From Cylindrobasidium torrendii FP15055 ss-10 (lineage: Eukaryota; Basidiomycota; Agaricomycetes; Agaricales; Physalacriaceae), in assembly GCA_000934385.1 (NCBI GenBank), contig KN880709.1, forward strand, positions 1 through 30,397: a stretch of 30,397 bases of DNA, given 5' to 3'. Under the pieces are notes generated by a model. It saw only the letters and a program-made list of their open reading frames with translations. It was not told the origin of the DNA and did no database searches. Below, piece after piece: positions 1-28,135 of this stretch (its first letter is position 1; each line of letters opens with the position of its first letter). The translations under genes were made by a program, and so were the position numbers.

Positions 1-930
1 AGCGTAAAGGGATTAAAGTGCATCGTGTGACTCACTCTCCTCGACGATAGTTTGTACTTCGGTACTTAAAATTGGACGTCGGCGGTCACCTAGTGATTTA
101 GCCACTCAGACAGTTGACCCCTCTGGCAACTTGTCTTCGCGTTGAGCGTACTCGAAAGAGGGCTCCGCACCAGTTCGAACGACCTTAGAAGAAATTCTAT
201 TGAAACAATCCAAAAGCCTTAAATACCCCACGAACTTAGTGTTTGGTGTGTGTGTGTGTTGGTAGCTCATTGCCTTCGCCCATATATCAGCGCATCACCG
301 GGAAGGATCGGAAGGATTGAACAACACCTCGGGGACGTCGGCAGAACAGATGGATGCCAGACAAACCCAAAGGCAAAGCCTCCTGCAACCTATACGCGTT
401 AAGCACACCGGAACCCTGGGTTGAGGTCTATGGAAGTGGAGCGCGATCCAGCAGGGTATGAGAAACCACAATTCTTTAACTAGCAAACCTCTACATGCGA
501 GACTGGTATATCTACTCTAGATGGCGAGCTCGGAACCGGAGAAGTAAGCGTAGCATCGGAATACTCTTGGAATGAGATAAGGAACATGTAAATAGCAAAG
601 CCAATGATAATACACCAATAACCTGCCGCAGCCAAGATGTCCATGTGAAGATAGCAAGGACCGCATGGTCTTGAATGAGTGTGTGTGGAATGAGTGCTCG
701 GAATGACACGTAGAGTGCGAAATGCAATGATAGCACTTGGAGCCCAGAGACAACTGGAGACCGAGGTCAAGAGCGATGTGCCGGGCAACAACTTGGCGAG
801 TCATGACTCATTTGCCAGAATACGCTTGACAGAGTGTGTGTGGTGTAGGGAGATGCACAAAGCAAATGCGAGCACATAGTGAAAGCGCAGCTTGAACACA
901 TCAAGGCAAAAGCGAGTTGGCATGAATGTA
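1..930. other. Left flank of the transposon, no firm gene
   Basis: This stretch lies outside the left terminal repeat of the transposon. It contains a short TG microsatellite at about 246-259 and scattered short reading frames on both strands. The only frame with protein-like character is the minus-strand segment at 480-644, listed separately. The last two bases, TA at 929-930, are the probable left copy of the target-site duplication. Confidence 0.5.
480..644 (-). CDS. Possible last exon of a membrane protein (weak)
   Basis: On the minus strand, from an ATG at 644 to a stop at 480, about 54 codons are open. The first part reads as one strongly hydrophobic helix (around AAAGYWCIIIGFAIYMFLIS), followed by a Ser/Pro-rich polar tail, as in the C-terminus of a multi-pass membrane protein. 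I could not join it to an upstream exon with confidence; the sequence further upstream (645-800) is open in more than one frame. It may be the 3' end of a decayed gene or a chance frame. No family is recognised. Confidence 0.2.
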   Translation of the reverse strand: MDILAAAGYWCIIIGFAIYMFLISFQEYSDATLTSPVPSSPSRVDIPVSHVEVC

Positions 931-946
931 TGTCGGAAAACCGCTC
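931..946 (+). repeat. Left terminal inverted repeat
   Basis: TGTCGGAAAACCGCTC matches the reverse complement of 15947-15962 exactly. The next five bases are diverged or partly matched, and then a TTATAAG follows at the same offset from both termini. Immediately outside is TA. Confidence 0.9.
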
Positions 947-950
947 AGCC

Positions 951-1650
951 CTTATAAGTAGCTTCTAAGGCCATTTCGACCCTTTGCCAGCCGATCGCCT
1001 TATAAGCTGCTTATCGGAGAAGAGTCGCCAAATATATGCATATGTTAAGGTACGACTTATAATGGGCAACCGGCTGCAATCACATCGTTGTGATCCGAGG
1101 CGTGATCGATCCCAAGCCTTATAATCATGATTATAAGGCTTCTTATAATGCGCTTATAAGATGGCTTATAAGATGGCTTATAAGCTTGATTATAATGTAG
1201 TAAATAAGGTACATCTTCGGGCTCTATGGTCGGAGGCCAAAGCAATCGGGTACTGTCCGGTCCGGCAACTAACGTGCCTCTACGAGCCGGACCCGCGTGG
1301 TCTAGGGCGGGACCGCGTGGCGTTGGGCGGGACCGCGTAGGGTGTTCAAATCCTGGCGCAGTCGACGTCGGGGGCTTGTGCAACGCGTACGTGGTGGGGG
1401 CGCTGCGTGGCCGCACATTACCCGCGTAATTTTTGGCTGCTGGTTCGAAAAATGCATGGCCAAAAGGCGTACATGTAGTCTCCGGCGAATCCGCCCAAAT
1501 CGGATGGCTCGGCTAACCATATGCCGGCAGGGCAAGGCCTCATAAGGCAAATATAAGCCAATTATAAGGGGATTATAAGGTGATGCTGTTGCTGCAGCGC
1601 GGTCCGGCCCCCCGGCAGCCCAAATGGCTCATAAGCGTTCTTATAAGCTA
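951..1650. repeat. Left subterminal TTATAAG repeat array
   Basis: About 700 bp next to the left end carry well over ten copies of CTTATAAG, ATTATAAG or ATTATAA-like motifs in both orientations; CTTATAAG is itself a palindrome. They form three clusters: about 951-1065, a dense run at about 1117-1197 including near-tandem GATGGCTTATAA units, and about 1538-1650. Subterminal motif arrays of this kind are known transposase-binding regions in CACTA and related elements; binding here is inferred. No gene is supported in this stretch. Confidence 0.75.
1287..1344. repeat. GC-rich tandem repeat, period about 20 bp
   Basis: Two adjacent 20-bp units beginning GGGCGGGACCGCGT (1305-1324 and 1325-1344) follow a partial, diverged copy from 1287. 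The block sits between two TTATAAG clusters in the left subterminal region. No coding function is apparent. Confidence 0.6.
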
Positions 1651-1893
1651 GGTCAAGAAAAATACCCATGTACTTTGCTGATACAACTACTCACTGAGTA
1701 AATGGTACCTTCAGAGACATTGTCAGCAAATTAATTCCTCACCGTGGAGCCTGAACTTCCTTCGGTAGACAAAGTATTCCAGAATAATGCTATATTCATT
1801 GTACAATGCCATTAGCTACCGAAAATATTCGATGTAATCACCTGGATGTATCAAAGGGTTTGAGTAATACAGCACTGATCATGGCAACATCAT

Positions 1894-4800
1894 TTAGTAG
1901 CAGCCCTCGGGAGTTGAATTTACATAGTCCTCGTCGGCATCAAACGCATCTGGATCTTCGTCAGACTCCAACGGCGCCTCGTCGATTTCTCTGAGGCTCC
2001 TTGCTATCTCGTCCTCCGCTTCGTGTTGCAGATTATGTTTCTGAAGCACCTGAGTAGCGCTATAGGAACGTATGACCGGTGGTGTCTGCTGTCTCTGCGT
2101 TGTGTTGGATATGCCGTTGCGCGGGCCGTTGTTGAGAGATCTCGGGGGTGCAACCGATGAGCTGACGGTGGGCGTTGTCGGGTTAGCGCCAGGCGGGCGA
2201 AGGATCGCATGCGCGCCTAGCTTCTGCGTGTTATAGACGCTACCACTTCCGTTACGATTGCCCAGCGCTGCCGCCGAATCCGAAACAATACGTCCAGAGT
2301 TTGCCCGATTCACAGGTGCTATGGATGCCAAAGACGACGTGGATGTTGATGAGTAGGTGTGGCTGCTGTGTCGCGGGGCGTTGCTGGGACGCGAAGACGG
2401 GTGGCCCAATCCCAGAGCTTGATGTCCACGGAGGACTGCAGGCGCGCCAATGCCCCCAGTCACGCCAGTATTCATCGACGGGGCCTGCTGTCTCTCGGAG
2501 AGAAGAAGATACTTGAGGCCTGGGGTGAGACTGAGGACGCCGTTGCGCAGCAAGCTCTTGAAAGCATCGGGCTCAGACCGCGCAAACTTGGCTGTCGTCA
2601 TATCGTGCTCAGTGATTGGCGGCGCGCTAGGTAGAGCTGTTTCCGCTGGAGAACCGGGGGCAGCAGCACTTCTGTCGATGGTTGTAACGACTCGGGCGGC
2701 GCTGGAATCGAATGGAGGAGCCTGCATGCCTTGGCCTTGGTTGGATGTTTGATCTGTGCGTGGGCTCGTTGAGCGAAGGGCTCCTGGCGTACGGATTTCA
2801 CCGTGGTCGCCGCTGCGTTGGATCTCTGGTATCTGCAAGCGACCAGTTGGCTGTGATGGCACCGACGAAGGATTGTTCGCCACCGAGGAGACACTCTTCT
2901 CCTGAGTGCGGAGGGCTTGTCTGGGCTTTGGGCGATTGCTCGTTTGCGACGGCAGTGTCGGGAGAGTGTCACTTGCTGCGGTAGCAGCAGTTGCACTTGC
3001 AGTTCCTTTGGCCATTGCCGCTTCTGTGTACCACAGCCCATCTTCTTCGCCGCCGGGATACATCTGGAGACCCCATTCGTTGCTGTCACCCATAATCTCG
3101 TATGCTTTCGCTTGAGTGGACTTCATTGCGTCCGCGACAAGTAACTGAACGGCAGTGGGAACAAGCACCGCCCGATGATAGTCCTCTGGTGTCGCCGGAG
3201 ACGCAACTTTTGCAATGCTGTCAACGGGGAACATATCCTTGAGCACCTTAGCTATAATGATCTGCCCACGTTCGCCGTAGCTATCATCCTATCAGAACAT
3301 ATGCAACAAGAATGTCAGTACACTTACTAGCCACAGAGACCAAGTGATTCTATGGACGACGCTTGCTCTGCAGTCGCCGTCAGATACGCTTTCCAGAAGA
3401 GGTTTTTGCCCCGTGTATTGCCCTTCGCCGCAACAAGTTTGGATAGGCGCCCTTGGAACGCCGATGACCGCAAGATTTTTTCGATGCCATCCCAGTCAAT
3501 GTCGGGGTATGGGTGTGCTCGATGTTCGAGGAGCGATGGCTCAGCAGCGTGACGAATGCATACTGGATGCGGGGAGGGAACCTCTTCAAGGAAACTGACA
3601 CCATCCGGGTTCGTAGCACGGGGAGTCTTGATGCTATGTTCTAGTGCTTGATGTAGCATGGTACGGAAGAGCGCAGAAAGGTTCTCTGCGCACAAGGGAG
3701 CGTCGCACAGAGGGCAAAGTGCTCTGGCCAAAGGTACAGCGCCGTGTGAGTGCAATGGTTCGGCAGGGTCTGAACCTGACGAAGCAACTTCCGACTCAAT
3801 CTCCTCAATGGCTTCGACTTCCTCGATAACTTCAACTTCATCGTCGTCCTCGCCTTCGGCATCTTGGCTCTGGGCCCTGTACGGGCGCGCAGATATGATG
3901 AGTGTTTCATTGCGCTCAACGTCGATGACGACGTTATTCCCAGAACTGCGATGGGCACCAGTGACAGATGGCTTGAGTATCCCGAGGAGTGGCGGAAGGG
4001 TATGCCTAGGAGCTTGGTCAATGTCAGATAAGTACGTGGTGAATGAGCCGTACGTGCTGCTGCCAACATCTGCACCTGATGTGCCCTCTAGATCATCGTC
4101 CGCGGGGGCAGGCACAGCGTAGTCTGAATCGTTGAAGTCCACATCCACCTCAGCGCCAGAGAATGGGCCGTCGATTGTGTTGTCGCGTGTAGTAAGGCCC
4201 GCAAAGTCGCTGGCGAGGCCTATAAGACAAGTAAGCTTCCAAAACAAGCTGTGTGGCTCAACTCACCATGATGGTCAAGCAAAGGGGTCCCTCCATCTTG
4301 CGCAGTCCCTGCACGAGGTTAGTATAGCCACTCAAAGGTTGTGCCGCCTAGTATTTACCTGGTTGCCCCAGATCGAATGATAAGCTGGGTGCACCTGCAC
4401 TTCGTGCCGCCTGCGCAAAACGCTGTGCTCGAAGGGCTACCTGGTCGGTTGCAGGCGTTGATGAGCTGCTCTGGGATGCTGTACTCGCGGTGCGTTTCCC
4501 AAAGAGATGCTCATTGAAGTAATCGAGCGTCCGAAGCATCCCTGGGTCTTGGGCTTTGAGCTTGAGGTCGACCAGAATGTTGTACGTCTTGAGCGTCTCC
4601 CCGAAATCGATATCGGTATCTGCGCCTACTTCGGTAAAGAAGCGCTCAGAAGTAGCTGTGAAAAGAGCCTGTCCCATCTTCTTTTAGATGATCGTAACAT
4701 TGCCATGTGCATGGGACTTACCAGCAAGCCTCCCAGAGCAATAACGGAGGCGTCGGCTATCATATCCAACTTCTGCGCTATATTCTTGCGGCCGTCGACA

Positions 4801-6017
4801 AGCTTCGCATGGCCAGACAGGGAGTTTGCCCCAAGGAAAGTGAGCTTAAGACACTATGTAGAAGATATTCAGCGTTGCGGATATGACAAAAGAAGTTGAA
4901 CATACATTGAGAACGCACTCTACGCGAAACTCTGTTCCAGGGATGAGATGACCGTTCGAATCTAGTTCAAACAGCATCGGGGGTATCGCTTCAGTTGCAG
5001 TGAACTTTCGCGCGGTCGTGTCGTATCCGATGAGGTAGGACCACTCGGACTCGGTGACAATGTCCGCGACAGGCCGTCCAGCATATGGGGCAATAGCAGA
5101 TTTCGCGAAGATATCCTCGCGCTTGTTACGACAACGATTGGACAACATTGACCTGAACCTCGCCTGTCCTTTATTCATCTAGAATAACGTCAAGTGTGAG
5201 AATGCAGTTGAGTTGGCGGGTTTGCAGTCAACTCACAACTGCTCGTACGCGTTTGTTCGTCCTGTACTTGATAACATCGTCCCGAGGTACCAGAGTGTAG
5301 AAACTACGAATGATTTCGAGGTCGAGGCGCCCATGGTGGTCAAGAGGCTTGCCGGTCACAGGGTCTTGGTCGTGGCCCAACGCATAAGTGACCGTGTCGA
5401 TGGGGTGTTGGAGGACGATCTTCTCGTACCACAGATAGACGATGGCCATCTTCTTGATCCACGGGAAGTCCTTGGGGCTTGGGGGTGTGCCATCGTCAGG
5501 AGGTCCGGCTGGAGCTGCTTCCACAGCTGCTTGGAATCGAGAGCTTCGCGTAGACCCCACAAGCTGTACTAGGGCTTAGGAAAGGAGGTGATTCTAGGAG
5601 ATATGTATTCACCTGAGTTTGAACTTGCGGCGGCTCGGGACGTTGAGGCACAGCCACGGCTCCTTGCCCCGCCGCCGTCGGTGCGCACAAGGGTGACGAT
5701 TGGCCGTGATTAGACTGACTTGGGAGCTTGACGGAGAACTCTTGCAAGAAGTCCTGAACGTCGGTTGCGTTTAGCCAGCGATTAGCTTGATGGGCAAGCG
5801 CCGAATTATCGTCGAAAGTGGGCGGTTGTCCCGTCTGCTTTTGCGGATATGGCGGGAGGAGCTGTTGAATAGGTGGGCAATCCTCCAGCCTTCCACCAAC
5901 GACATGTCCACCACCACCGCGCGCTGGTCCACCTGGGCCAGGCGCAAATAACCAGTTGTCGTGGCCGGGTGGTCCAGCGCCTTGCGGATGCGCATACCCT
6001 TGGTTAATGTAGTTCAT
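1894..6017 (-). CDS. RTC4-like domain protein, transposon cargo, 1259 aa
   Basis: Eight exons join in frame on the minus strand: 6017-5613, 5563-5237, 5178-4906, 4853-4722, 4680-4359, 4308-4267, 4219-3328 and 3280-1894. An in-frame TGA sits just upstream of the ATG, which fixes the start. The N-terminal ~135 residues are Gly/Pro/Gln rich. Residues ~136-480 look globular and are unrecognised. After an acidic stretch come CPLC (669-672) and HPVCIRH (~718-724), then the RTC4-like module with DIDWDGIEKIL, GYYGERG (797-803) and an EDYHRAVLVP..VQLLVADAM segment to about residue 875. The tail to 1259 is Ser/Pro-rich and ends acidic. The final splice acceptor was chosen because it restores the family GYYG motif. 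Yeast RTC4 is named for a telomere-capping genetic phenotype; the biochemical role of the domain is not established. Lying well inside the element, this is cargo or an accessory protein. Confidence 0.8.
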
Positions 6018-6047
6018 TCAGGACTAGACAAAATTTCATTTAGCGGT

Positions 6048-6882
6048 TCAGAGCGGGAGGCCAGGAGGGTCGACGTACAAGAAAATCGTCTGTTCGAAAA
6101 GCGCACTGATGAAGGGCGAAGGACAGATGGAGTGCGATACTGAAAAGACTAGCGCACCACGCGGGCGATGGAAATTCAAATTGTGCAGGGAGGTGATGCG
6201 TGCTTGATACTCTTTGAAATACGTTAACCCGTATGGGATTGTGGCTGGGCACGTTGTGCATACCCTGGAATGCAAGAGATTGGTAAATATAACCATAACG
6301 CCGTGCATTTGAAGCTTACCAGAACTGGGCAAAGTGGTTCAGAGGGATGGCGTACCACAGCCATCCCAGTGGCGCGGCGGTAAGTTGGTGGGGCCCGCGA
6401 TTTCATTCAATTGAAGGGAGGACACGCCAGATATTTAATGAGATGCATTGGATCCACGCAGCTCCTGGGGAGAAGCCGCTATTTCCCCAAGCTCAGTCGA
6501 CGGTGTTCAGAATAGTGTACCAAGGGCCTGTGTTGTTTGACCATCCGCCTTCCGCTCCCTTCGGTTCGTAAATCCAGTAAAGAAATAGGCCAACAGGTAC
6601 CCGGGCGGCATAGGGTGATTCAGAGGGTGTGGGTGAGGTTTGTTCGACAAGCATCCTGCTAGGACCGACGGGGTTACTGCCCATGCATGAGCTCAACGAA
6701 GACTGTGCGTCTTCGCTGGGAAGAAAGCTGTACGCCTCCTCCTTTGCTGGGTGTGCCGCAGTGTTTTGAGGTGGTCCATGGTGGTTGCTTGCGAAGTAGC
6801 CGATCAGCGAATTGATGAACTATGATCGCCAATTCCAAACTCGACCATCATCATCGCTCACCAAATAGACTATAGGTAACAT
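6048..6882 (-). pseudogene. Small unknown gene interrupted by two in-frame TGA codons
   Basis: Exons 6882-6862, 6819-6320 and 6264-6048 splice at good GT..AG sites into one frame of 245 codons before the final stop. The first coding segment is open for 115 codons, then TGA occurs at 6495-6493. The same frame continues with protein-like sequence (W-rich, around GAAWIQCISLNIWRVLPSIE), meets a second TGA just after that, continues through WYAIPLNHFAQFW, and crosses the second intron to end at FLYVDPPGLPL. Continuity of composition and splice phase on both sides of the stops argues that this was one gene. Both stops could derive from CGA by C-to-T change. It lies 30 bp upstream of the RTC4-like gene on the same strand. 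No family is recognised. Alternatively only the first 115 residues are made, or the stops lie in an intron I failed to see. Confidence 0.55.
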
Positions 6883-7186
6883 TTTAATCCTCTTCGATGC
6901 AGCCGCTTCATGTTAGGGAAGGCGTACAGCCATCTCATAGAGCAATGACGTACAGTCATTGTTTGTCATGTCGCCCGCTGTGAAGTCTTGTTGGCACGAT
7001 GCTAATGAACACAGTCATGGACACCATCGAAAGCACCGCAATGTCCAAGTCATCTTACCGTCATGTGGAGAAGAACCCGCGCCGACTACTACAGTATGGG
7101 GCACAAAACCCGGTCAGCGAGCATCAGCGTGAGTACACCATAAGTTTCGAAATGTGGTCTCACGTTGCCGTAAAGCCTTCAACACG

Positions 7187-9345
7187 ATGGATGGCCGGGT
7201 TGCTGCCCTTCATCCAACATCTTACTTGCTCATCACCACGCCCAACGTCGACTATATTCCAACCCCTGTTGTCGGGAAGGCAGAAACTGTCTTCGTGCGG
7301 GATGACTTGCGTTTGGGAGAGCATGACCCAACACAATGGCCGCAACACTGGAATCCCGAATTTCCACACCTTCCTTGCATCCCGCGCAAGGAGACAGCAC
7401 ACAGTTCTCGTAGCGTTCTCTGGGCATCCCCGCTGAAGCAGCCGAGTGACTTTGTTGTGGTCAGTCCCACCTGCGGTAAAGGACTTGGGCAGTTAACTCC
7501 CCAACTTCGCACCGACCTCAAGAACACCATTCACGAAATTACGACCGCAGCTGAGCGTACGGTCCCAAAAGACCTTCGACTTACGCGCCAACTCTTGGTC
7601 GGCATCGACCACTTCCACTTCCTCATCGAGAACCGTCCACTTCCGTACTACCGGACATTGCTATCGCTTCGTTGTCTCCAGCGCGCAATGCTCGAGCTAG
7701 ACGCTCTAGTCAACTACTACGAGCACGTAGTTCCCGTCTTCAACGGCACTGGGGTATCTCAAGGAACAATTCCCCCTTCGAGAGGATGGATCGGTGCATT
7801 CACATCCGACACACTCGCAGCAAGGCGTCTCTGTGCTTCCGGATGTCCCGTATGGCTTCTATGGTCCGCCGAACGACATACAAGTATTCGTTGCTTCAAG
7901 ATTGCATCTCCACAGATGGCAGCGGACCATCTTTCCACGGCCCAGCCAGCTATGTCCAGCTACTGCCAAACATTATATGACGGTCCCCTGGGTCATACGA
8001 AGAAATACCTTCGGATCCGCGATTGGGCATTTGTCGACCTGGGAAAGCTCTTCAGCCCTCTCAATCTCTTTCAACTCCCTTCGCGCCCATCCGGTGGAGC
8101 GCTGCCGGGACCAGCCACTTCATCTCAGCCCGTTCGCCAGCGCAGTACTGGTGAGTTCGAGTTATAGACCTGGCAAGTGCGCGCTTATCACATCACCTAG
8201 TGCGCATTCCAGGTGGCAACAAGACATTCAAAGTAGCCTCCCATCAGCTTCTGTGTCCAGTCGTCAGAACTTGGGGGAACGCGCAAGAGACAATTGACGT
8301 CTCGACTGCACGCTGCATGGATCTGACGGGATGCGAGCGCTTCATCGTTCCGCGCCCAGACATCTTTGTGTCCAGCGGCAGCAACGACGGTATTGCACGC
8401 TCCTTTGCATCGTGGCTTCGGGTTCGGCCTGTCATTCTTGCCGCACTTAATCGGCCCGCCAAAGACACTCTACAAGATTTTCCGCAGATATCTCATCAGG
8501 CATTTCGCATTATTCTCCATGAGGGCACGCTTGATGTCGAACCACCTCGTCTTGACTCTGGAGGCGCGCATACACCAACGACAGGCTCCTCCGAGCTATT
8601 TGGAAGCACGCGCGCGCCCTCAAAAAAGAAGAACAAAGGATCTGGATCAAGACAAAAAGAGGCGCGCAATCGAGACGATATCGCGGCGTATACTGCGTTC
8701 ATACGCGACGGCGATCCGGATGTACATGGTGTGCCCCCGGACGTAGTGCCAGAGTGGTTGGGGTCCCCGTTCGTTCAACAGCCTGTCGTATCTGAGGACC
8801 ATGGCATCTTGCGCGAAATTACTTGGGAATTGGCCGAACTGGGATTCCGCATCGACCTTGTCGCCTTGGATGCCGCGATGGATCACGGACGCTGGGATTC
8901 AGACAAGCAGCATCAGGCTGTTCTTCGCAGCTGTTTCAGGATAGGTGGACGCAGTCTCCTCGACGTCGACCTCGGCATGGCCAATACAGGGTTAGCAGAG
9001 GCAGACTGGATGCTACGCGCACCATTTCTTTTCGCGCTCAAGATCCTTGTCTCTTATTGGAAGCCTCTGGGCGATACGCCAGCGCCTGCCAGTGTCTTGA
9101 CTGACGTTCCACGGCACTTCGAAGGATATACAGAGGCGGAATTCAGCCAGCTCGAATCTGATATAGCGTGGTACATCAACGAGGTCTTCTTTCGTCGATT
9201 CCGCCGCCCGCTTATCCTTCCTCCAACACTCCCACTCCCAGGTGCCCTACCTGCTCATATATCCTTCGATGTGCCGCCTATCATGCAGTTACCTGTTCGC
9301 ACAGCTGGTCGATGGCTTCCTACTTTGTACAATGCACGGTTGTGA
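7187..9345 (+). CDS. 702-aa protein of unknown function, transposon cargo
   Basis: Two exons, 7187-8150 and 8201-9345, flank a 50-bp intron (gtgagt...cctag); the junction codon GTG restores the frame. The start ATG is followed by DGRVAALHP. The first ~330 residues are rich in hydrophobic and aromatic residues and look globular, for example LLVGIDHFHFLIENRPLPYY and a later GWIGAFTSDTLAARRL segment. A basic Lys/Arg-rich linker (around SKKKNKGSGSRQKEARNRDD) separates it from a second globular region ending near the C-terminus. No signal peptide, membrane helix or known catalytic motif is seen, and I cannot assign a family. It is transcribed away from the minus-strand genes to its left, with about 300 bp between start codons. 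Its size and intact frame suggest selection, so it may be an accessory protein of the element. Confidence 0.8.
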
Positions 9346-9491
9346 ATTATCTTTGGACAATACTTATCTAGTCATGTAGACCTCTAAATTGTATTTTGCT
9401 TTGCTGTGGCCTGTTCTTCTGAGTACCCCTTGAAGCACAACTATTCATCGAGTGCACATAGAAAATCCGTGTTCTGAGCGTATATAGTGAA

Positions 9492-10229
9492 TTAAGGGCA
9501 TGATACGGTGGAGAATATCAATGTAGTGTCTAGATACAACTGGTGCTGCCTGTCAGAGGACATAGAGGCAATTGTAACAGTGTCCTCGAACTTCTGAATG
9601 ACATGGACATGGATAATAATGCGGTTGGGACGACGGTATGAGGGGATTATGTGTTTTGTTCTCCGAGGGAAGCAGAAACCCTGGCACTGTTCCTCGATAC
9701 TGTCCAATATGGATTCGATTTCCCGCGGGTCAACAAGACTCATCTGTTTGTAGGACATGAGATACGGGTAGGGAAGAATAGAACTCATAGACGCACCTCG
9801 TCGTAGTACAATTGACGTAGGACCATGCGCCAGAAGCGTCCCCAGATCCCAATCTCGTCGACGGGCTCCGGATTCAAGGTGTTGTGCAGTCGGCGCGGCC
9901 AGCCTTTAACCTGTTATTGGGGGATAAGGCTCAGCTGTTATACCTCATTTCATAGGAATACGCGACATACTCGCCGCCGACCAGATTTGAATAGCGCCAG
10001 CATTGAGGTTACGAGCAATAGAGTGACTTGAGAACGCTCTTCGGGCTGCACCGCGACGTGAGGGACGAAGGAGAAGGCAACCCTGTCGGTGTTTGAATCC
10101 TACTACCTTTTCTGACGTGACACTCTGATCCCCGCGGAAGCAATTTCCTTCTGTGCTACATACCACCAGCGCGCTTAATATCGCAATATCTATCGCACAT
10201 TTGATGGTAATAATGTTTCTCTCCCCGGT
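9492..10229 (-). CDS. Multi-exon gene of unknown function, start unresolved
   Basis: Four minus-strand segments join in one frame, every junction in phase 0: 10229-10164, 10099-9971, 9910-9797 and 9743-9492. The introns have good donors (gtatgt, gtatgt, gtgcgt) and AG acceptors. The reading gives at least 186 residues, with stretches such as VAFSFVPHVAVQPEERSQ, WGRFWRMVLRQLYYDE and LVDPREIESILDSIEEQC before the stop at 9494-9492. No ATG occurs in the first segment before an in-frame stop, so an upstream exon must exist, perhaps under the plus-strand gene starting at 10258, or the gene is truncated. No family is recognised. Consistent splicing over four segments makes a chance origin unlikely. 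Confidence 0.55.
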
Positions 10230-10257
10230 CTTGATGATAATTCACAGACGATAGATC

Positions 10258-10745
10258 ATGCCTGTTGCCGACACTTCGGCCGGCGCGCTGCATTTGGATT
10301 TCGGACACAAATCGAGCGAGCCCGTAGACGAGAGCGTTCTCGAGGAGTACGAGCCAGATGAGCTCTTGCTTGTTGTCAGCGGACTTTGGGAGTTTATCAG
10401 GGAAAACCGGAAGGTCCTCATACACCCTTCGTACGTGTGCAGTTTCCGTGTTGTTATCTATGCGCTAACACAATCACTTGCTTTAGGGCAACGGGAACGG
10501 ACAGTGATGAATTCATTCGCATCCTTCAAGCTCTGAAAGAACATGCTGCCAACGCTGGAGCGGTTGAACTTGGGAGGATATGTGGAATGGTAGTCGAGGG
10601 CTTGTTGCTGCAAGATGTCAGGAGCGGAATTCGACTTCAGGAGCACGAGTGTGATGAGCTTGTAGGGGCAATGAGAGCAGCTCGTCGGGCCTTTGCACTT
10701 TATTTGTTTAATTTGGATATTCATGTCATCCTCCACCAGCTGTAA
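10258..10745 (+). CDS. 143-aa small acidic protein, faint HPt-like helix pattern
   Basis: Two exons, 10258-10430 and 10487-10745, flank a 56-bp intron with gtacgt donor, a CTAAC branch-point-like site and ctttag acceptor. The protein is acidic at the N-terminus (EYEPDELLLVV) and predicted helical after residue 60. The segment ILQALKEHAANAGAVELG (70-87) resembles the histidine-phosphotransfer signature HxLKGxxxxxG, but the phosphoacceptor His position holds Gln72 and the Gly position holds Glu76. A later helix (ECDELVGAMRAARRAF) would fit the fourth helix of such a bundle. This is a shape resemblance only. The antisense strand is also open over part of exon 1, and the minus-strand gene at 9492-10229 may have its first exon here, so strand assignment carries some doubt. 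Confidence 0.55.
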
Positions 10746-11062
10746 ATTAACCTTCCTTTGCGTCCCGCTGTAGGCTTAGACCGAATCTTGTGTTACAATC
10801 TATGAACAACAGCATGTTCGACAACAATAGATTGTGTATTTCTGTACAGCTACTAAGGAATAGATATGATTGATTCATGGGGTGGGATGGAGGGTGCATG
10901 ACTGGCTATCTATCCCAACAACAGGAAGACAAACACGCAAGCTATGATAACCAGAAGTCAGCACAGGGATGAATGTAGTAATATGCACGCACCAGCCCTC
11001 AACGTTGAGTCACCGTTGTTATCCTACATGTAGATGGAACATGCCGCCCCCAGAAAGACCTG
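10746..11062. other. Intergenic, no gene seen
   Basis: About 320 bp between the convergent ends of the 143-aa gene and the 150-aa gene. It is AT-rich in parts, with no coding frame, repeat or RNA structure that I can support. It presumably holds the 3' untranslated regions of both. Confidence 0.5.
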
Positions 11063-11572
11063 TTACGATGCCCGAACTGTGAGATGTCGAGTGTCTAGCG
11101 CATTGACTTTACCATATGCTTGTACCCCCAAATAAGTTTTCGAGCACCCTCCATCCCCAATGACGATGCTAGATGTCGTCCATGCGTACCGCAGAGGTAA
11201 ATAGAGCCCTTCCTGTTGGACTACTCCAATGTCCCGGAAGTCGAAGACATGGGACACGCCGGAAGACAGTGCTTGATGGTTGAAGGTCCAGGGTGCGCGG
11301 AGGCAGGAAACGTTTGGCTGCGCTCGGTCCTCGGACGTTTGAAATTTGTTGCAGTAATCGACGGCAGAAGGAAGGCTGTAGTTGGCTAACCCATCATGGT
11401 GGTGCTTAGAATTGTTGGCCACTGATCGTAGCAGTACTATACAATTGATCGATGAAGATCGAAATAACTCTTACTTACAATCACCGTGATAGCGTCGTCG
11501 AGTAAGTCGATTTTCACTAGAGTTGGGCGCAAAATGTGACAAGCATTCCACAGAAAAACTCTGAAAAGCCAT
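11063..11572 (-). CDS. 150-aa protein of unknown function, divergent from the transposase
   Basis: Two exons, 11572-11479 and 11421-11063, flank a 57-bp intron (gtaagt...cgatcag), and the junction codon restores a single frame. The protein starts MAFQSFSVECLSHFAP, has a basic patch NRLTRRRYHGD, a His cluster KHHHDG, and a body including VSHVFDFRDIGVVQQEGLYL. No signal peptide or membrane helix is seen and no family is recognised. The ATG is 156 bp from the transposase ATG on the opposite strand, so the two genes probably share a bidirectional promoter. A regulatory role for the element is possible but is inferred from position alone. The stop at 11065 may not be final if a 3' intron was missed. 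Confidence 0.6.
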
Positions 11573-11728
11573 ATGCTTCCGGGGCGACGTACAGTCTGCC
11601 TTCTGCTTTTGCTCGTCGCACAGACTTGCAATTTCTTCTTTCTGCATCCATCGAAAACTGTCTTGCCATCTACTTCTGTCTGCGTATCCACTTCGCTTTC
11701 CATCCCCCTTTCTTCTTCTCTGCGCCGG

Positions 11729-14700
11729 ATGCCAACGAAGGATGTGTATGATTTGCAACCGCGAGAATGGAACGACATAGACAAGCTCGCACTCTGCAAG
11801 ATCTGCCGCAAAAAATGGTGTGACCGACGTGGGCTCCAACAACACGAAAAAGCCTGCCAAGCCGCGCTTGATGTTGACGCAATGGACCGCGTCCGTGCTA
11901 CTTGGGCAAATGGTATGTCCCATTGCCTCTACATCAAATCAACGTGATTAAGATTTAGCGGCGCCCGTATCTATCCGTCCATCTCAAGGTACATTCGCAT
12001 GCCCTTCATCCCCTCTCCTCATGCTTGCTTATAGGGACACAACCTCCGCCAGGGATCACTCAAACCAGCACCCATGGACACAGCAATGCAGGGATAGGTT
12101 CTTCTGGTCACGGCAATTACATGGGTATGTACTTAAGCCATATTCCCACAAGCAACTGCTAACTGTTATCCTTTAGCAGCCGCAACCGACGAGTGGGATA
12201 GCATCTTCCTTGCCCCCGAGCCACTGGAATTGTCGCATGGCAATGAAGGTACATCCTTTGTTGCAAATGCTGACAAGGCGCTAATTGTTTTCAGCGGAAC
12301 TTTATCCATTCACGCAAGAAATCTCCGACAGTGCTCTAGGCCACACGTCTCCGTCTACCCCTTCGGTCCCCGTTATTGAGCAAGAATCTCTCGACCGTAT
12401 CCTGATACGGTGGCATCCAAGCACAATGCGCAAGGACGACAACGTAGCGTTCGAAGACTTCAATCCGGACCCTGACCTTTCGGACATCGCATGGCAAACC
12501 ACCGCTGAGTCTGCTGACAACAAGACCTTCGCCCCGCACTCACCCTTCAATACCGAACTCGACTTTGAGATTGCCGACTTCTTAAACGACACGGGGCTCA
12601 CCAAGAAAGCCGGTGAACGGTACTTCAAGCTTCTCCAAAAGGTTTCCATGAACCCTAAGGACTGGACAATGCGGGATTGGAGTACATACACGAAAACCAT
12701 GGACGCCGCTTCCGAACTGGTCAACGAGGTATGAACCAGGTTTATGGTTGTTTTTTTCTCTCGGCGCTTACACGTCTTTCAGTTCAAGAGCGAGACATTT
12801 GAGGCCAAGCACGTCGACGACACATTCAAGTTCACGGTATACTTTCGCGACATGCAGAGCTGGTGCATGGATCTCCTAAACGAACCGTCACTCAAACCAT
12901 ATCTCGAATTTGACGCGCGCAAAATGTTTGTGTCGACAGATGGACGCGAGTTTAGGCAATTCTGGAGGGAGCCCAATACCGGTGAGCTGTGGTGGAACAT
13001 CCAGGTAGGTGAGAATCCGAACCTCAGTGGCAATATGCCTTATCCTCTCTAGGACCATATCTCCAAAAAATACGGTAACAACAACGTCAAGCCGGTCTGT
13101 CTCATTATCTACACGGACAAATCGAGGTTATCGTCGTTTGGGACCGTCCAAGCATATCCGATTGTCGCCCGTCTTGCCAACCTTCCTGACCACATTCGCA
13201 ACAACAACGGCCTCGGCGGTGGTCGCGTTGTCGGCTTCTTGCCAGTTGTGAGTCTTCAAAATCCATGTAGAATAGGTACTGACACATAACGTGCCCAGAT
13301 CAGTGAGCACGACCGCTACAAGAATACAACGGCTTGGGCAAACTTCAAGCGAGAAGTAGAACACCGCGCCTTGGAGATCTTTCTGCGCAGCGTGGTTGAC
13401 TGGCACAAAAAAGGCCCCGTCCCATACCAGTTCAGCGACGAGATCAGGTACAACGTCCTCCCATATGTGCTCATATACTCTTGCGATTATGAAGAAGCGT
13501 GAGTGCTTATTTTCTCAGCCAAAACAGTATTTCTAATAATTTCCAGGATTCTTCTGACCCTCACTCGCGGTGTAGCGGGATCTCATCCATGCGTCTTTTG
13601 TCTTGCGCCAAAGGACCAGCTTATGAAAAACCGAGACCACTATGCGATGCGTGATTGGGAAAAGGAAAAGGAAATGTACAAGAATAATGCCAGCGATAAA
13701 TCGTATGGATTGCAAGGACTACGTCGTGTCAAAGTAAGTTCCTCTTCGCTCTCGGGAATAGGCATGTATTAATGTGCGCAGAACGCGTTCTGGGAACTTC
13801 CTTTCTTCAATCTACACAAGGCGCTCTCGTTTGACACACTGCACGCGTTTTTCAGCGGTCTTGGGGACCGTATTTCCAAGACTCTCGTGGGGCGCGTTAG
13901 CGCTCGTGATAGTCGGGAAGGTAGCGGTCCCAAGAAAGGTCCCAATTATGGTACAAAGCTTGATAACAAGTGGGTGTAACGTTGAACACGCATCAGTTGC
14001 CGATACTGATTCTACGCCAGCATCGCTCTCTTTCCACGCTGGCCCGGGCTGAACCACTTCAGTGGGGTTACTCAAATCATCAACAAGATGTCCGACGGCA
14101 CGAAGCGCGACCATCTTGCTCGCGTGCGTCCTCACTCTCCTTTCTATTCCTCACTGACGATGTTTGTGCAGCAACTCATGTTCTGTCTGCATGGCATTGT
14201 CACGCGAACCAAGGATCCAATTGGCTACACCTTGCTCAAAGCATTTCGCAAGTACCAGGAAATGGTTCTCTACGCTTCACTATCAGTCCAAACCCTAGAG
14301 ACCAGAGAGGGTGGCGAGGCGGCCTCGCTCGCGTACACCGACTTGATACAAGTGCGCTTCTGTATTTGACTATCTTTTTCTTCTCCTCACTTACCTTGTA
14401 CAGGAATATGCAGACCAATCGTCGGCCCAGGAAGGTTCCAATGTAAATTGGAATTTTCCCAAGAACCACATCTTCAAGCATTTCTGGCAGTTCGATATCA
14501 GCATGAAGGGTGTTTCCAAAAACATGAGCACCAAGATCAACGAGGCCATGCATCGACCGCTCAAGTTTACCTACCAGAACAGAACCAATTTCAAGAACGT
14601 CGAAGTACAGGTGCGTCGTTCGCGTCGCCTTCGTGGACATGAGGGTTAACGTATGTAGATCGCGCGCTACGAGCGGCGCTCGGATGCGATGGCGTTCATC

Positions 14701-15767
14701 CTACATCGCATAGACTGGTTTAAGCGGTTCGCGGCGCGAGACACAAAGGGCAGCACAACTTCCGTCGGGGCTACAGGTGACGGCGGCAACACTTCTGCCG
14801 AGGGTGCAGACAAGAAGGCTGAGGGCGGCGTGGTTCCAGACAATGGCGGCGACACTTCTGCCAAGGGTAAAGACAAGAAGGTTGAGGTCGGCGTCATTGA
14901 GGACGATGGACAAGTTGGACTCAATGCAATCCGCGGCGACCACTGCATTCCTGGCTGCGACCGCATCACTGTCCACGGCGCACAGCCGGGGGCAAACCCG
15001 AAAACGAAGCATGAGGTTGGGACGCGCTCAATCATCGATGTCGAAACCGCTGGCGATGCTGCACATCGCAATCTGGCGACTAAACTTGAAGATTTTGTCG
15101 TAGCTGCAATGTCGGATGACAAACGATTCCAAGATCCCCAAGTCATACGCAAGTTCAAGAGGCGCGGGTTCGCAGACACGGACGAGGTCTGTCATCCCTC
15201 CCCTCTTCGGCACGGAGTGAAAATCGTTGACATAACATTATCCAGATACGCCTCTATTCTTCTCTCAAGGTGTCGTATGCCAGCGAAGTCAACTGGAAGA
15301 CTCAAACGGATATTGTACGATCCATCTCGAGCTTCCATTCAACAGAACGCTTTGACTGCATCCTATATCACACCGTTGATGGAAACTATACATTCGGCCG
15401 CCTTCTTCACATTATTAGGTGCTTTCCTTTTGGAATCGACAACGGCCCCTCCATCGTCTGTGCCCTTGTGCACCCTTACGATGCAGCCCTCCTCAAAAGC
15501 CAAGAACTTGCTACATTGGACCAGGATCTCTGCTTTTACCGTGTCCGTTCACAGTCTCGCAAGGACTCCAGGATCATACCCATCGCTTCGATTGTCCGTG
15601 GTGCGCTTCTTGTTGAGGACGTGTTCAAGGTTGAAGGTTATCTGCACCAGGAGGACTACGAAGCGGCTAAGGACAGGCATGATTATCTTGTTATGGACAT
15701 TATAGATGAGGATATGTTCATTCGCATGAAGACACTACCATACAGAGGCCGTAGACCTGAGATATAG
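11729..15767 (+). CDS. Plavaka-type transposase, 1113 aa, intact
   Basis: Fifteen exons join without frame break: 11729-11912, 11959-11988, 12035-12124, 12177-12248, 12295-12728, 12783-13004, 13053-13247, 13299-13498, 13547-13733, 13782-13969, 14021-14123, 14172-14351, 14404-14610, 14659-15186 and 15246-15767. An N-terminal C2HC zinc finger (Cys23, Cys26, His39, Cys43) would bind DNA. The core has Plavaka-type motifs in order: YTDKSRLSSFGT with Asp366 as a candidate catalytic residue, RLANLPDHIRN, GGRVVGFLP, a CDYEEA motif (471-476), HPCVFCLAP, the HKALSFDTLHAFFSGL block, FPRWPGLNHF, and the C-terminal NFPKNHIFKHFWQFD/TNFKNVEVQ block. The family cuts and pastes elements of the CMC superfamily; which acidic residues are catalytic is my inference. 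The start was taken at the first ATG of the zinc-finger exon; upstream in-frame sequence is unlike protein. A 21-residue repeat is duplicated near the C-terminal third. Confidence 0.88.
14782..14907 (+). repeat. 63-bp tandem duplication inside the transposase
   Basis: Two adjacent 63-bp copies encode a 21-residue acidic-basic unit of the form GG(N/D)TSA(E/K)G(A/K)DKK(A/V)E. Copies differ at several bases. The unit sits in a low-complexity linker after the conserved transposase core, so length variation there is probably tolerated. Confidence 0.7.
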
Positions 15768-15837
15768 CATCAATCTACATGTACTTATTCTACAGTATCT
15801 AAAGCCATCGTTTGTCTACCCCGAGTCTGCCTCGGGC

Positions 15838-15942
15838 CTTATAAGCGGGTCGGCTTATAAGGTACGGCGCACGCGCTTGCAACAGTCGTGCCGTCGCTTA
15901 TCAGCCACGCGGCATCGTTTATCAGACCCTTTCGCTTATAAG
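15838..15942. repeat. Right subterminal TTATAAG repeats
   Basis: Three exact TTATAAG motifs (beginning about 15839, 15854 and 15936) and two TTATCAG variants lie between the transposase stop and the right terminal repeat. The array is shorter than the one at the left end. It matches the left array in motif and in the offset of the outermost copy from the terminus. Confidence 0.75.
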
Positions 15943-15946
15943 GCGA

Positions 15947-15962
15947 GAGCGGTTTTCCGACA
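15947..15962 (-). repeat. Right terminal inverted repeat
   Basis: GAGCGGTTTTCCGACA is the exact reverse complement of 931-946. TA follows immediately at 15963-15964, matching the TA before the left repeat. Confidence 0.9.
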
Positions 15963-15964
15963 TA

Positions 15965-20189: not shown

Positions 20190-23100
20190 TCAGACATTCC
20201 TGTACTCGAACGCTGGGGTACCAGGCTCTGACTGGTCAATGATAACCTTGGTGTATCCTGGCTCACCCGCCTTCGCCAGCGCCTCATCCACCGTCAGCAC
20301 ATCCACGTCTACCAGATTCAAGGTCTTTTTCAGATACGCCAGCATCTCCTTCAGCACCTGCGTCTCCGAGAACAGCAGTCCACGATTGAATGCAGTCTCC
20401 GCACCATACTGCGCAATACGCTTCTACAAAGGCCGTTAGTTTCCCAATGCTCACACGCCCCCAGAGGACAACTCACCTTGAGGCCTTGGATGAACGGCAT
20501 TGCTCGCTTGTCTTTAATCAAACCCTTCGCCGACAAAAGCTCCTTCACTTTGGCGTCATCCACCTTCTCAGCCTCCTTCGCGTATGCCTCCTTTGTGATC
20601 GCCACACAGGTGTTCTGCCACTCTGGGAAAGAGCTCGCCACATATATCCGCACACTCTTGGGCTTCTTCGGGTCAAACGCTGCCTCCGCTGCCTTCGAAC
20701 CACCCTTGTTCTTCGCCTTATTCAGCATCTTGAGCAGAACGGTCTCCGCATCACGAATCATGCGTGTGGTGCCGCGCATGTACTCGCCCGCCTCAAGCAG
20801 AACCTTGTCCACGGGCTTTTCGGGGGTAGGCCAGCGTGCAAGCTGAATCGACGATGGCTCCTTGAGAATATCCGACCAGGTGTGCTCCGCAAAGTGAGGA
20901 GCGATTGGGCTGGCGAGTAGGGCAGAAATCTTGATCCAGTAGAGAACGAGGTCGCGGTGCATGCCGATATCTGCGGTCACCTCACGGTACCAATCACGGG
21001 CACTCTGCAGCTCGTAGAAACCGAACTTGAGGGCATCCTTGTACTCGTAGCTGGACAAATGGATCAGATGAAGGTTGCAGAGGGCGTGGGGAAAAAGTAC
21101 TTCTCGTAGTGACCCTTGGTAATGTTGATAAGTTCATTGATCTCGTTCTCGAAGACATTGTCGTGGTATGTCCTTGGGCCGGTACGCAGACTGTCCTGAT
21201 CCTTGACCATTTCCTATACACACACTAAGCCCCATTTCGGTGACCCCAATGACATGAACGTACCTCTCCCCATGTTACCAGTGTGTGCACACGCAAGATG
21301 TTGGCATTCGCAGTCTTCTCCTCGAAGTTGGCATCCTCAATACCATCACCAGCGTCCGCCAAAGACAGCCTCGTCGCATCAGCACCAAACTTCTCAACAC
21401 AATCCTTCAACGTCAAGAAATTGCCCGTGCTTTTGCTCATCTTCGCACCGTTCAGCATCAAATGACCATTGGTACGCATACTCAACGGCCACTTGTCCTC
21501 GGGCAGGAGGGCAACATGGTTGTAAAGACAGAATGTCAAATGGTTGTTGATCAGGTCCTTGGCTGAGGAGCGAATGTCGAAGGGATAGAAATAGTTGTAT
21601 TCGTGCTTCATCGCGTCGACCTTCTCCTTCGGGATGGTAGAGTTGGCGGGCCAAGGTCCGTCAGCGAACAGGTATTCCCATACTTCATCGGTCAGTTGGT
21701 CGGCGGTGATGCCCAGAGGGCCGACTTTGGATCCGTCCAAACTGCTGTCTGTGAAAAGGATGAGCAGAGAAGAGAAAACGGACGATATAGCTTACCATGA
21801 AGCAGATGCGCGATGGTGTAGTAGCACATGTAGATGGTAGAATCACTCAGCGACTCGACCATGAAAGCCTTGTCCCAAGGCAAATCCGAGCCCAAGCCGT
21901 AAGTGCGCGCGCAAGCCCACTTGTTCAACCAGGCCAGAGTCTTTTCGAACGCGTTGCGTGTCTCGGGAATGTACATGTCCATTGTCGCGACGTGCCTACA
22001 GAAAGATTAGTCGAGAAATGAGTAATCATTGGAGAAACGCACTTCTCAACCTGGTCGCGCCATGTCGTCTCACCGTAGTCCAAGTACCATTGGTCCATCA
22101 GCGCAACAATACACTCGTCGGCGCTTCTCGAAGTAATAAGACCCTCGGGTTCAGCGTACGCAAACGCTACACCCTCCGCAATCATATCGGCGCGGACCTT
22201 GGCCTTTGCGACTTGAACCGACTCGCCCTTGTACTTGCCGTAGGACATGACACCGTTATAGAAGCCCTCTTTGTACGCGATTTCCTTCGCCTCAGCCAAC
22301 TGCTTGATGTCTTTCTGCGAGTTGATCTTCAGCTGCTTGACGAGAGCCGGTGCAATCATATCGCCGTACGTCGGGGTAGTGATAAGGGGAATGGGGTCGA
22401 ATTTGGCCCAAGCGGCATCGATCTTGTAGTACTCTGCCTTTTTGCGCAAGTCGGTCAGAGCCTGGTAATCGTCGGGCGAGTCAGAGGGAACAGACGTGAC
22501 GACGCCAGTACCCTTGGTGGCGAGCACGTTGTCCATGGGCAAGACGTAGATCTCAGGGTAGACTGAGTACGGCGCCTTGATCTTGGTGCCAATGAGAGCC
22601 GTGCCGGGAACGTCGACCAGATGGTGTATTTCGCCACGATCAGCAGTGATGCCTTGGAAGGTCATATTGCGCATAGAACGTTGCGTGCAGAGATATGCTT
22701 CCTGGTCGTTGACAGCGAAGATACCGTACTTGAGAGATGTTCCGACGAAGCAGTTGGTCTGGCCATACATAGTTTCGGGGCGAAGAGTGGCAGCGACCAT
22801 ATAGACCTTGCGACCGCCAACATTCCCCTCGATGATCTTCTTTGCCTCGGGGGCCAAGTCGACAACCTCGAGCTTGATGCCAGTGAATTCCTGCGGACCA
22901 AGGCCCTCACCCTCTTGACGATCATGATCCATACACGGCTGGCCATCCTTGGGACTGTAGATGGTATAACGCTCGCCAAACTTGATTTTGTCCAAGGTGT
23001 GCAGTTTGTTCATTTGCCAGCGGACGAAAGAATCGAAATACGGGTTGGCATCGGTCGTCAGGAAAGTGCGGCGCCAGTCGATGCGGGATCCAAAGCTCTC

Positions 23101-23888
23101 GTGGTCGCGCTATGGATGGATAAGAAACGCATTAAACATCGCATAGAAAAACACGCACCATAGCAATAGGAGGGAAGTACTGGACCCAGTGGTAAGGGTC
23201 CGCGAACTTCTTGATCTCCTCGCGCGGGATACCGATGCTCTCCATAATTTGGAACTGGTAAGTGTGCCCAGTCTTTTTCGCCTGAAGTTTGCCCTTCTTG
23301 CCCTTGGACTTGTCTACTGGGTCTCCGCTCGCCGCTACTGGTGCCGCCTTCGCTTCTTCCTTCTCCGCGTCCGCCTCAATTTGAGCACTGACAGCCTCGA
23401 AGTTTTCAAAGTCTTGACCGAATAGCGCCAGTTCGCGGACGATTTTGTCGGCAGAAGCCTGTTCACGTCGTATTAACACAAAGCTCTGAGGACGAATATA
23501 CTACGCACCTTGATAGGTAGACCAGTGACATGGAAACCGTGAGGGAAGAGAACGCGCTTGCCCAGCATGCGGTGGTATCCGGCGGCGAATTCGATTTTGG
23601 AGACGGTGAAGGCGTGGCCGAGATGGAGACTGCCATTCATGTACGGGAAGGGAAAGTTTCCGAACCACTTGGGGTGTTTTTCCAGGATATCTGCCTTGGA
23701 CAGGCCTTCCAACTCGGCGGCATTCGGCGCATCGACCTCGAACAGGTGTTCATCCTTCCATTTCGCCTGGTATTTCTTTTCAAGTGATATAAGCGTGTCA
23801 CGCTTGCCAGTCTACAGGGAGTGTTGAGCAAATGGAGCAAATAATGCATTGACGAACGCACCTGGGCCAACTCGATGGTGTTGGCCAT
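20190..23888 (-). CDS. CDC60: Cytosolic leucyl-tRNA synthetase, 1100 aa
   Basis: Nine exons splice cleanly: 23888-23862, 23811-23509, 23458-23159, 23109-22043, 21995-21796, 21748-21264, 21213-21101, 21050-20477 and 20423-20190. The enzyme attaches leucine to tRNA-Leu in the cytosol. The class I HIGH-type signature is HLGH at residues 72-75 in [18 protein letters not shown], and KMSKS lies at 735-739. The editing (CP1) domain between them shows [13 protein letters not shown] and [17 protein letters not shown], the latter holding the conserved editing Asp region. A Lys/Ala-rich insert (about residues 140-165) lies between the Rossmann halves. The C-terminal region matches the eukaryotic/archaeal type. 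Length is normal for the fungal cytosolic enzyme, and there is no mitochondrial presequence. The symbol is that of the yeast orthologue. Confidence 0.95.
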
Positions 23889-26063: not shown

Positions 26064-28135
26064 ATGCTTTTCTCTTCCATTCTGTCCCTTTCCCTTGTCA
26101 CGCCATTCGCGCTTGCAGCCACTGCCGCCGACTGGCGCTCACGGTCGATTTACCAGGTGCGTGCCCGTATAGTCCCGCTAATAGCTGCTCATCTTTATCT
26201 TCCACGTGTAGGTTGTCACCGACCGATTTGCGAAGGGAAAAGGCGAAGATGATACGACATGCGACTCGTCACAGCGAAAGTATTGTGGTGGAACATGGCA
26301 GGGAATCACCGACAACCTCGACTACATCCAACAGTTGGGCTTCGATGCCGTCTGGATATCTCCCGTCGTCGCCAACCTCGAAGGCGAGACGGACTACGGC
26401 GAGGCATATCTAGGGTATGTCCCGCGACAGCCGCACTTGTGTTTTTCCTGACCCGTCACAGCCGTTGGACCCAGAACATTTCCCACGTTAACGAGCATTT
26501 TGGAAGCGGCGACAGCTTGAAGGAACTTTCTGCTGCGCTGCACAAGCGCGACATGTACCTCATGGTGGAACTTGTTGTCAACAAGTATGTAGCCTTCTAC
26601 ATGCCTAACGCTATTCTCATGCTCTCTAGCTTTGCTCTTCTCCCCCAGAACCAGACCGAAGACGGTTCTTATGACTACTCCTCCCTTGCACCATTCAATT
26701 ATGCCGATGCCTTCCACCCCGAATGTCCTATTAAGGACTACAGCAACCAGACAGAAGTCGAAGAGTGCTGGTTGGGCAATAGCAAGAAACTCATTATGCC
26801 CGACCTCGACACTGGCAATTCGTCCAACTTCAGGATCATGAAGGATTGGGCAAAGGACTTGATTGCCCAATTCGACGTCGACGGGTTCATGCTATCGGGC
26901 GCAAAGCACGTCAGCCCGGCCTTCTGGACTGACTTTGTCGGAGCTACCGGCATTTTTGCAATGGGCGATGTAAGTGTGCTGTTCTACAGATGAGCTATGC
27001 TAACACAGTCTCAAGGTCCTCACCGACAACGTAACCTATGCCGTGGACTACAGCAGTATGCAAACTTTCGTGGACGCAGTTCCTTCGCACGCTAATTTCT
27101 CTTTTTCTTCAGAAGCGCTCCCCGGGATTTTGGACTATCCGACTTGGTTTCCATTGATTGACGCGTTCTCTTCGTCGGATGGAAACTTCACGGCGGTCGT
27201 AAACTCCATCGAACACTCAAAGGAATTATATGGTGTCGGGCTGTACACCAGTGGCTCCTTCATCGAGAATCCCGACCAGCGCAGGTTCCCCAATGTGACT
27301 ACCGACGAGTCCTTGATTCTTAATGCCATGACGTGGCCGTTTGTCCATAACGGCATTCCCATCGCGTATTATGGTGCGTCTGCTCTTCGTGGTCTTCTAT
27401 CATAAGCACTAAGCATAAATCTCCAGGTCAAGAACACGGACTCTACGGCGGTGCATCCCCGGAAAACCATGAATCGTACGTTGAGATATAAGCATGTTGT
27501 TCATAGGCTTACCTGATGGTTTCTTATAGCCTTTGGTCTATCGGTCATAACACATACCACGCCCAATACGCCCAGCACTTCGCTACCCTCAACGGCGTTC
27601 GTCATTTAGCTATCGATTCGGGGAAGAATTTCTTGACCGCACCGGTATGTCGCCATATATGTGGATGAAATACCTCTCACATAGGGTTCTTCTAGATGGA
27701 GTTTGTCCCTCAAGTAGACAAGAACGCTCTCGCAGTGTCAAGACCTCCCCTGCTCGGGCTTCTGACCAACGCTGGCAGCAACAGCAGCGCTCAGTGGACT
27801 ATCCCTGCGGACACCGGCCTCTTCCAGAAGGGAGAGTCCCTCGTCGATGTCCTGACTTGCAACTACTTCGAAGTGGATCAGACGAGCGGAGACCTCGCGA
27901 TCCAATCGGACAGTGGCATGCCCATCGTGTGTTCTCTCCTTGCAACTCTTGTATGTCACCGTTAAGCCCATCCTAGGTCATTATCCCTTCGAAGCTACTC
28001 GACGTCGAGGGCAAGTTCTGTTCGGCACTGCCCACGCTGCATACCGCAGTGACCAACAACAGCCCGGTCTCTGTGCGGAATGTGAATACGCTTTCTTCCA
28101 TTTTTGCCTCCATACTGGCTCTCGCTCTCATTTAA
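26064..28135 (+). CDS. GPI-anchored GH13 alpha-amylase-like protein, catalytic motifs substituted, 556 aa
   Basis: Nine exons join in frame: 26064-26156, 26212-26414, 26462-26584, 26630-26969, 27016-27373, 27427-27475, 27530-27644, 27696-27926 and 27977-28135. A signal peptide (cleavage near ALA, residue ~18) precedes a fungal amylase fold with clear family stretches: CGGTWQGITDNLDYIQQLGF, VEECWLGN, MPDLDT, NGIPIAYYGQEH. The C-terminus ends in a hydrophobic tail (SSIFASILALALI), a probable GPI-anchor signal, as in fungal wall-associated AgtA/AmyD/Aah types. The four conserved regions are altered: region I DVVANH is ELVVNN (135-140); region II GLRIDTVKHV is GFMLSGAKHV, with Ser229 at the nucleophile Asp; region III GEV is GDV (Asp253 for Glu); region IV FVENHD is FIENPD with Asp340 kept. 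Classical hydrolysis therefore seems unlikely. The frame is otherwise intact, so a non-catalytic or wall-glucan-binding role is more plausible than decay. Confidence 0.88.

Follow-up and report, generated by a model that had tools for sequence, protein, structure and literature searches.

A probable, structurally complete PlavakaA-lineage DNA transposon of Cylindrobasidium torrendii with a conserved second protein and a variable third gene

Plavaka elements are a component of mushroom genomes; in Marasmius oreades they and KDZ elements together account for about half of all DNA elements, and the autonomous Plavaka elements of that study were defined via the transposase domain (PMC8290104). In the part of Kojima 2025 (PMC12730594) drawn on here, PlavakaA is described by its transposase and termini; PlavakaB has termini CATCA..TGATG, and TET/JBP genes, given for PlavakaB only, are found in some of its elements and were proposed to counter methylation. 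Plavaka and DUF6532 are named together among the domains of two Ganoderma species (PMC8955403), the only paper found by our literature searches to place DUF6532 with a transposon. No conserved second protein is described in the portions of the Plavaka literature used here (PMC12730594, PMC8290104, PMC9674265, PMC8955403), and those of PMC12730594, supplements aside, describe neither an RTC4 gene nor terminal octamer arrays. The same literature searches returned no paper joining RTC4, a transposon and a basidiomycete and, for Plavaka companion genes and Mycena, no fitting title among the matches listed.

We considered a stretch of DNA from Cylindrobasidium torrendii that forms the entire contig C279 (30,397 bp, hereafter the window) and searched the genome to which it belongs (29.3 Mb in 494 contigs). 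We consider, with a probability of about 80%, that positions 931-15962 form a single, structurally complete PlavakaA-lineage DNA transposon whose DDE transposase is accompanied by a conserved second protein, B, its proposed dedicated partner, and by a variable third gene, A. On this known kind of element, what is provisionally new is a protein B paired with the transposase, together with arrays of an octamer and a third slot whose content varies. The features are collected in Table 1. The right flank of the element contains host genes of ordinary look (a tRNA synthetase, a member of the alpha-amylase family and a gene resembling that of an acyl-CoA oxidase).

Table 1. Features of the window, with the basis of each assignment
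Feature	Position	Strand	Basis
TSD, left copy TA	929..930	.	sequence; matches 15963-15964
Left TIR TGTCGGAAAACCGCTC	931..946	+	sequence, inverted-repeat ranking, pattern search
Left subterminal array: palindromic CTTATAAG and partial copies	951..1184	.	motif searches
Additional left motif copies (TTATAAG, CTTATAAG)	1562..1647	.	motif searches
Gene A, RTC4-domain protein, 8 exons, 1256 aa	1894..6017	-	gene finder, splice check, Pfam
Gene A exons	5561-6017, 5237-5514, 4906-5178, 4722-4853, 4359-4668, 4267-4308, 3328-4219, 1894-3280	-	gene finder, splice check
Gene A RTC4-like domain (PF14474), protein residues 758-868, one intron inside	3061..3440	-	Pfam; outer limit 3440 reckoned from exon table
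Gene B, 3 exons (7041-7128, 7176-8150, 8201-9345), 735 aa	7041..9345	+	gene finder, public model
Weak gene C, minus-strand ORFs	9492..10464	-	gene finder; limit ~10464, beyond which the model is uncertain as far as 11647
Plavaka transposase, 14 exons, 1096 aa	11729..15767	+	gene finder, Pfam, motifs by inspection
Right subterminal array: 3 perfect CTTATAAG motifs	15838..15942	.	motif searches
Right TIR	15947..15962	-	sequence, inverted-repeat ranking, pattern search
TSD, right copy TA	15963..15964	.	sequence
tRNA synthetase of class I (by eye of the leucine type)	20190-23888	-	Pfam scan, eye
Alpha-amylase family protein	26064-28135	+	Pfam scan
Acyl-CoA oxidase-like gene	29156-30292	+	Pfam matches below cut-off

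The ends of the element read TGTCGG..CCGACA and, as the original prediction had it, a check of the sequence found TGTCGGAAAACCGCTC as an exact 16-bp inverted repeat at both of them, a pair that tops the ranking of the window's longest inverted repeats. The matching TA flanks that had been claimed are also present immediately outside both repeats and are taken as a 2-bp target site duplication, for which a single site agrees by chance 1 time in 16. Within the window, the 18-mer TATGTCGGAAAACCGCTC was found, with up to three mismatches allowed, only at both element ends, 0.02 matches being expected. The heptamer CTTATAA has 25 matches in the window against 1.8 expected (both strands, palindromic copies counted twice), with 18 in 951-1647, 6 in 15838-15942 and one outside the element, at 28139. 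The predicted likeness of the subterminal motifs was borne out by the octamer CTTATAAG, which occurs nine times in the element, six times on the left and three times on the right, and at no internal position. That a Plavaka gene and unrelated neighbours happen to lie between two short inverted repeats would be in keeping with an element present only once in the genome; the low expectation for the end pattern, the confinement of CTTATAAG to both ends and the existence of two relatives with the same end type and gene order speak against such a chance placing, which we regard as extremely improbable.

The element appears to be single copy in this genome: searches with its left 770 bp or right 195 bp found no further copies, and the TIR pattern, with up to two mismatches, occurs at three places, the element's own two ends and one two-mismatch place on C131. 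Its mobility is therefore inferred: a single copy provides neither another insertion nor an empty site or a footprint that would show movement. The search for copies in the same genome that had been proposed with the original prediction thus gave no second copy; protein searches found two diverged relatives with matched ends of their own, one of 13.6 kb on C54 and one of 14.3 kb on C292, both ending in TGTCGGAA TIRs. In an inverted-repeat search free of any motif, TGTCGGAAGCCCCG repeats ranked first on both contigs, flanking 13,600 bp with TC/TC outside on C54 and 14,264 bp with AC/AC outside on C292; ends beginning TATGT were found in neither.

In all three elements the genes run A(-) B(+) C(-) transposase(+), and the window and C54 share 35% identity in B (E 6e-137) and 30% in the transposase (E 5e-125). 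In a transposase tree of 19 rows, all from this genome, the window, C54 and C292 stand opposite the 16 others on a branch with support 100/100, with W_T, C131 and C23 as long branches. In each element the ends (320 + 260 bp, 580 bp in total) hold the octamer form CTNRYNAG at 16 to 47 times the density of the interior, with counts of 9 versus 14 in the window (binomial p 9e-9), 17 versus 9 in C54 (p 3e-22) and 24 versus 12 in C292 (p 6e-32), p-values that are optimistic as the form was generalised after viewing these three elements. The shared gene order and matched ends support 931-15962 as one unit; the prediction of a single complete Plavaka (CMC-like) element with these boundaries is thus backed by two relatives, each with TIRs and a 2-bp duplication of its own and with its genes in the same order.

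The transposase gives a Plavaka match (PF18759) with an E-value of 2.8e-40 and 139 bits, against a curated cut-off of 26.3. Our own gene finder, for which 37 long ORFs from this genome, those of the window among them, served as the training set, placed four models inside the element, and in the transposase model, trimmed to the ATG at 11729, the exons join in frame and end at 15767; the in-frame joining that had been announced is therefore retained, with the 1113 aa and 15 exons of that first model replaced by those of Table 1. The residue pattern of the PlavakaA clade is D/D, C(2)C, H(3)H, E (Kojima 2025, PMC12730594, in the part used here), and the joined protein has the expected catalytic residues D349, D455, C474-x2-C477, H700-x3-H704 and E725, an assignment made by inspection rather than by matching to Kojima's figure. 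These residues align with those of C54 and C292, the C54 model being without the CxxC exon. By eye, an N-terminal C2HC finger-like motif can be seen, and the Pfam scan of the transposase gave no zinc-finger-like match; through this motif of its own the transposase alone may bind the arrays.

Six accessory loci had been proposed beside the transposase. The gene finder and Pfam results reduce them to two firm genes (A and B) and a weak one (C), so that the element contains four loci and not seven. Gene C has no Pfam match; C54 and C292 each have a short gene in its place and on its strand, with no detectable similarity to it. Gene A of the window likewise lacks significant similarity to its counterparts in C54 and C292, and the three are consequently tied solely by place and strand. 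The RTC4 domain of the window's gene A is recognised by Pfam with an E-value of 7.7e-14, and a profile search of the genome matched RTC4 three times, in the window and on C229 and C326. The proteins of these last two are about 30% identical to gene A over 226-237 residues; as neither contig has a Plavaka match, the RTC4 part of gene A may, alone among the accessory parts, be a captured host domain.

The 735-aa protein B of the window is 100% identical to the public C. torrendii FP15055 ss-10 protein CYLTODRAFT_494042 (743 aa), whose start lies 8 residues upstream of that of our model. Using three B proteins as queries, we found relatives of B on 20 contigs, the window included, of which 15 are among the 24 contigs with a Plavaka match by profile (hypergeometric p 1e-18, the kinship of copies being ignored). 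The tally is per contig and includes any element cut by a contig end; B occurs without a Plavaka match on C238, C439, C240, C345 and C377, and Plavaka without a B match on C147, C23, C470, C281, C338, C167, C68, C131 and C210. On the 15 shared contigs the two matches lie 1.9-6.4 kb apart, edge to edge, on the same strand in the window, C54 and C292 (3/3) and divergently in all the others (12/12). Close pairs of B proteins also parallel close pairs of transposases (C53 with C5 and C296; C456 with C38). One B relative on a contig without a Plavaka match, a 756-aa model at C439:10373-12683 (L050), is possibly the survivor of a lost transposon or part of a cut element.

The nearness of B to Plavaka on 15 of its 20 contigs, with an orientation fixed in each lineage, speaks for a part of B in transposition or in the upkeep of the element; the window element probably carries a functional second protein. 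The nearness of B also tells against the original view that the accessory genes are cargo. In a cargo account, A and B would be passengers serving the host or themselves, with no part in transposition. The transposase gene does occupy only about one quarter of the element, and the 30% likeness of the RTC4 domain to proteins of contigs without Plavaka is as for a captured host domain. Passengers, however, should be gained and lost among elements, and B is found near Plavaka in two deep lineages, its close pairs following those of the transposase. When the genes were compared as possible passengers, B was common to the related elements and RTC4 was present, among the Plavaka loci of the genome, only at the window, C54 and C292 having another gene there. 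We hold cargo to be improbable, and the accessory load is better read as machinery of the element.

Outside this genome, a database search with the window's B returned B itself, that of C54 and one protein of Mycena leptocephala (E 1e-18, with 26% identity across 34% of the window's B). This last protein, used in turn as the query, gave 130 proteins including itself; the 120 of these that were listed all come from Mycena or Favolaschia, and the two C. torrendii B proteins are absent among them. A Pfam domain is present in one of the 120, a 1219-aa B-family protein of Mycena albidolilacea (P0015) listed with a SUN domain (PF07738), which is a fusion or a gene-model error. Window protein B has no Pfam match, nor have 8 scanned members of the 91 aligned in its family; the family profile matched no PDB sequence, and a fold search with two structure models gave weak helical matches only, none of them significant.

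The third slot differs between elements, with RTC4, DUF6532 or, by eye, a TET/JBP-like protein. DUF6532 (PF20149) occurs on 8 contigs, on C38 just below the curated cut-off, and 7 of the 8 have a Plavaka match, which suggests that this domain is often transposon-borne; in the 6 contigs that also bear B, it lies beyond B and on B's strand. The DUF6532 match of C456 is at 746-2762 (L056), and that element runs from CATCAGGAAAGGG at the first base of the contig to the complement of this sequence, which ends at 12239. Adjoining a B relative and a Plavaka transposase, a 743-aa model at C53:76086-78910 (L058) has by eye the look of a 2OG-Fe dioxygenase of the TET/JBP type, for which Pfam and PDB sequence searches gave no support; the ends of the C53 element were looked for and not found.

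These variable genes also bear on another account, in which B counters silencing or has a regulatory task and is not a partner in cutting and joining, the element then being a transposase with counter-defence genes of which RTC4, TET/JBP-like and DUF6532 proteins would fill the third slot. The TET/JBP genes of some PlavakaB elements, with the action against methylation proposed for them, fit this account, as do the changing third gene and a B without Pfam, PDB-sequence or significant fold match. No enzyme motif was recognised in B, however, and, unlike the third gene, B is present in the majority of the elements found here, which a core role would fit better; we think the anti-silencing account somewhat unlikely.

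For B as a dedicated partner of the transposase, the following course can be proposed. The transposase would cut at the TGTCGG..CCGACA ends and join the element to a 2-bp target, which is duplicated. The CTNRYNAG arrays at both ends would be docking sites that help to bring the ends together. B would most likely act in the end-synapsis complex or regulate it, in a role like that of TnpA beside TnpD in En/Spm, and gene A would sit in a slot filled elsewhere by other proteins, some of them perhaps chromatin- or DNA-modifying. A wider reading, to which we would give a little less than even odds, is that Plavaka elements are obligate two-protein systems, in which B coevolves with the transposase and the octamer arrays and in which exchangeable helpers in chromatin or DNA modification (RTC4, TET/JBP-like, DUF6532) take the third slot; if true, this would give DUF6532 a biological setting. 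If the transposase has B as a fixed partner, "hypothetical proteins" of Mycena and other mushrooms would be transposon machinery, to be masked as such, and elements deemed complete from the transposase alone may be incomplete. The element plan and its matched ends provide a defined set of parts for transposition tests in a laboratory host.

Among known systems, Iyer et al. are said to have reported in 2014 KDZ elements that carry TET/JBP and extra proteins; these are multi-gene DNA transposons of basidiomycetes like the window element and, unlike it, have a transposase of another superfamily, and no TET/JBP-like gene was recognised in the window element. The En/Spm (CACTA) elements of plants, in the part of PMC2613891 used here, share with it a large size, a DDE transposase with a second protein and a short motif arrayed close to either end. 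The termini of the window element, however, are TGTCGG and not CACTA/CACTG, and B is a separate gene and not an alternative splice product. The PlavakaB-type elements of C. torrendii, for whose termini C456 is the one basis, have a transposase of the same superfamily as the window and relatives of B, several with a third gene (DUF6532, and in one case TET/JBP-like by eye), and differ in the divergent placing of B and transposase (12/12), which in the window are on the same strand. The closest likeness is with PlavakaA (CMCT clade; Kojima 2025, PMC12730594, as far as drawn on here), with which the window element shares the Plavaka transposase, TGT..ACA termini that are also those of C54 and C292, a 2-bp target site duplication and an Agaricomycete host.
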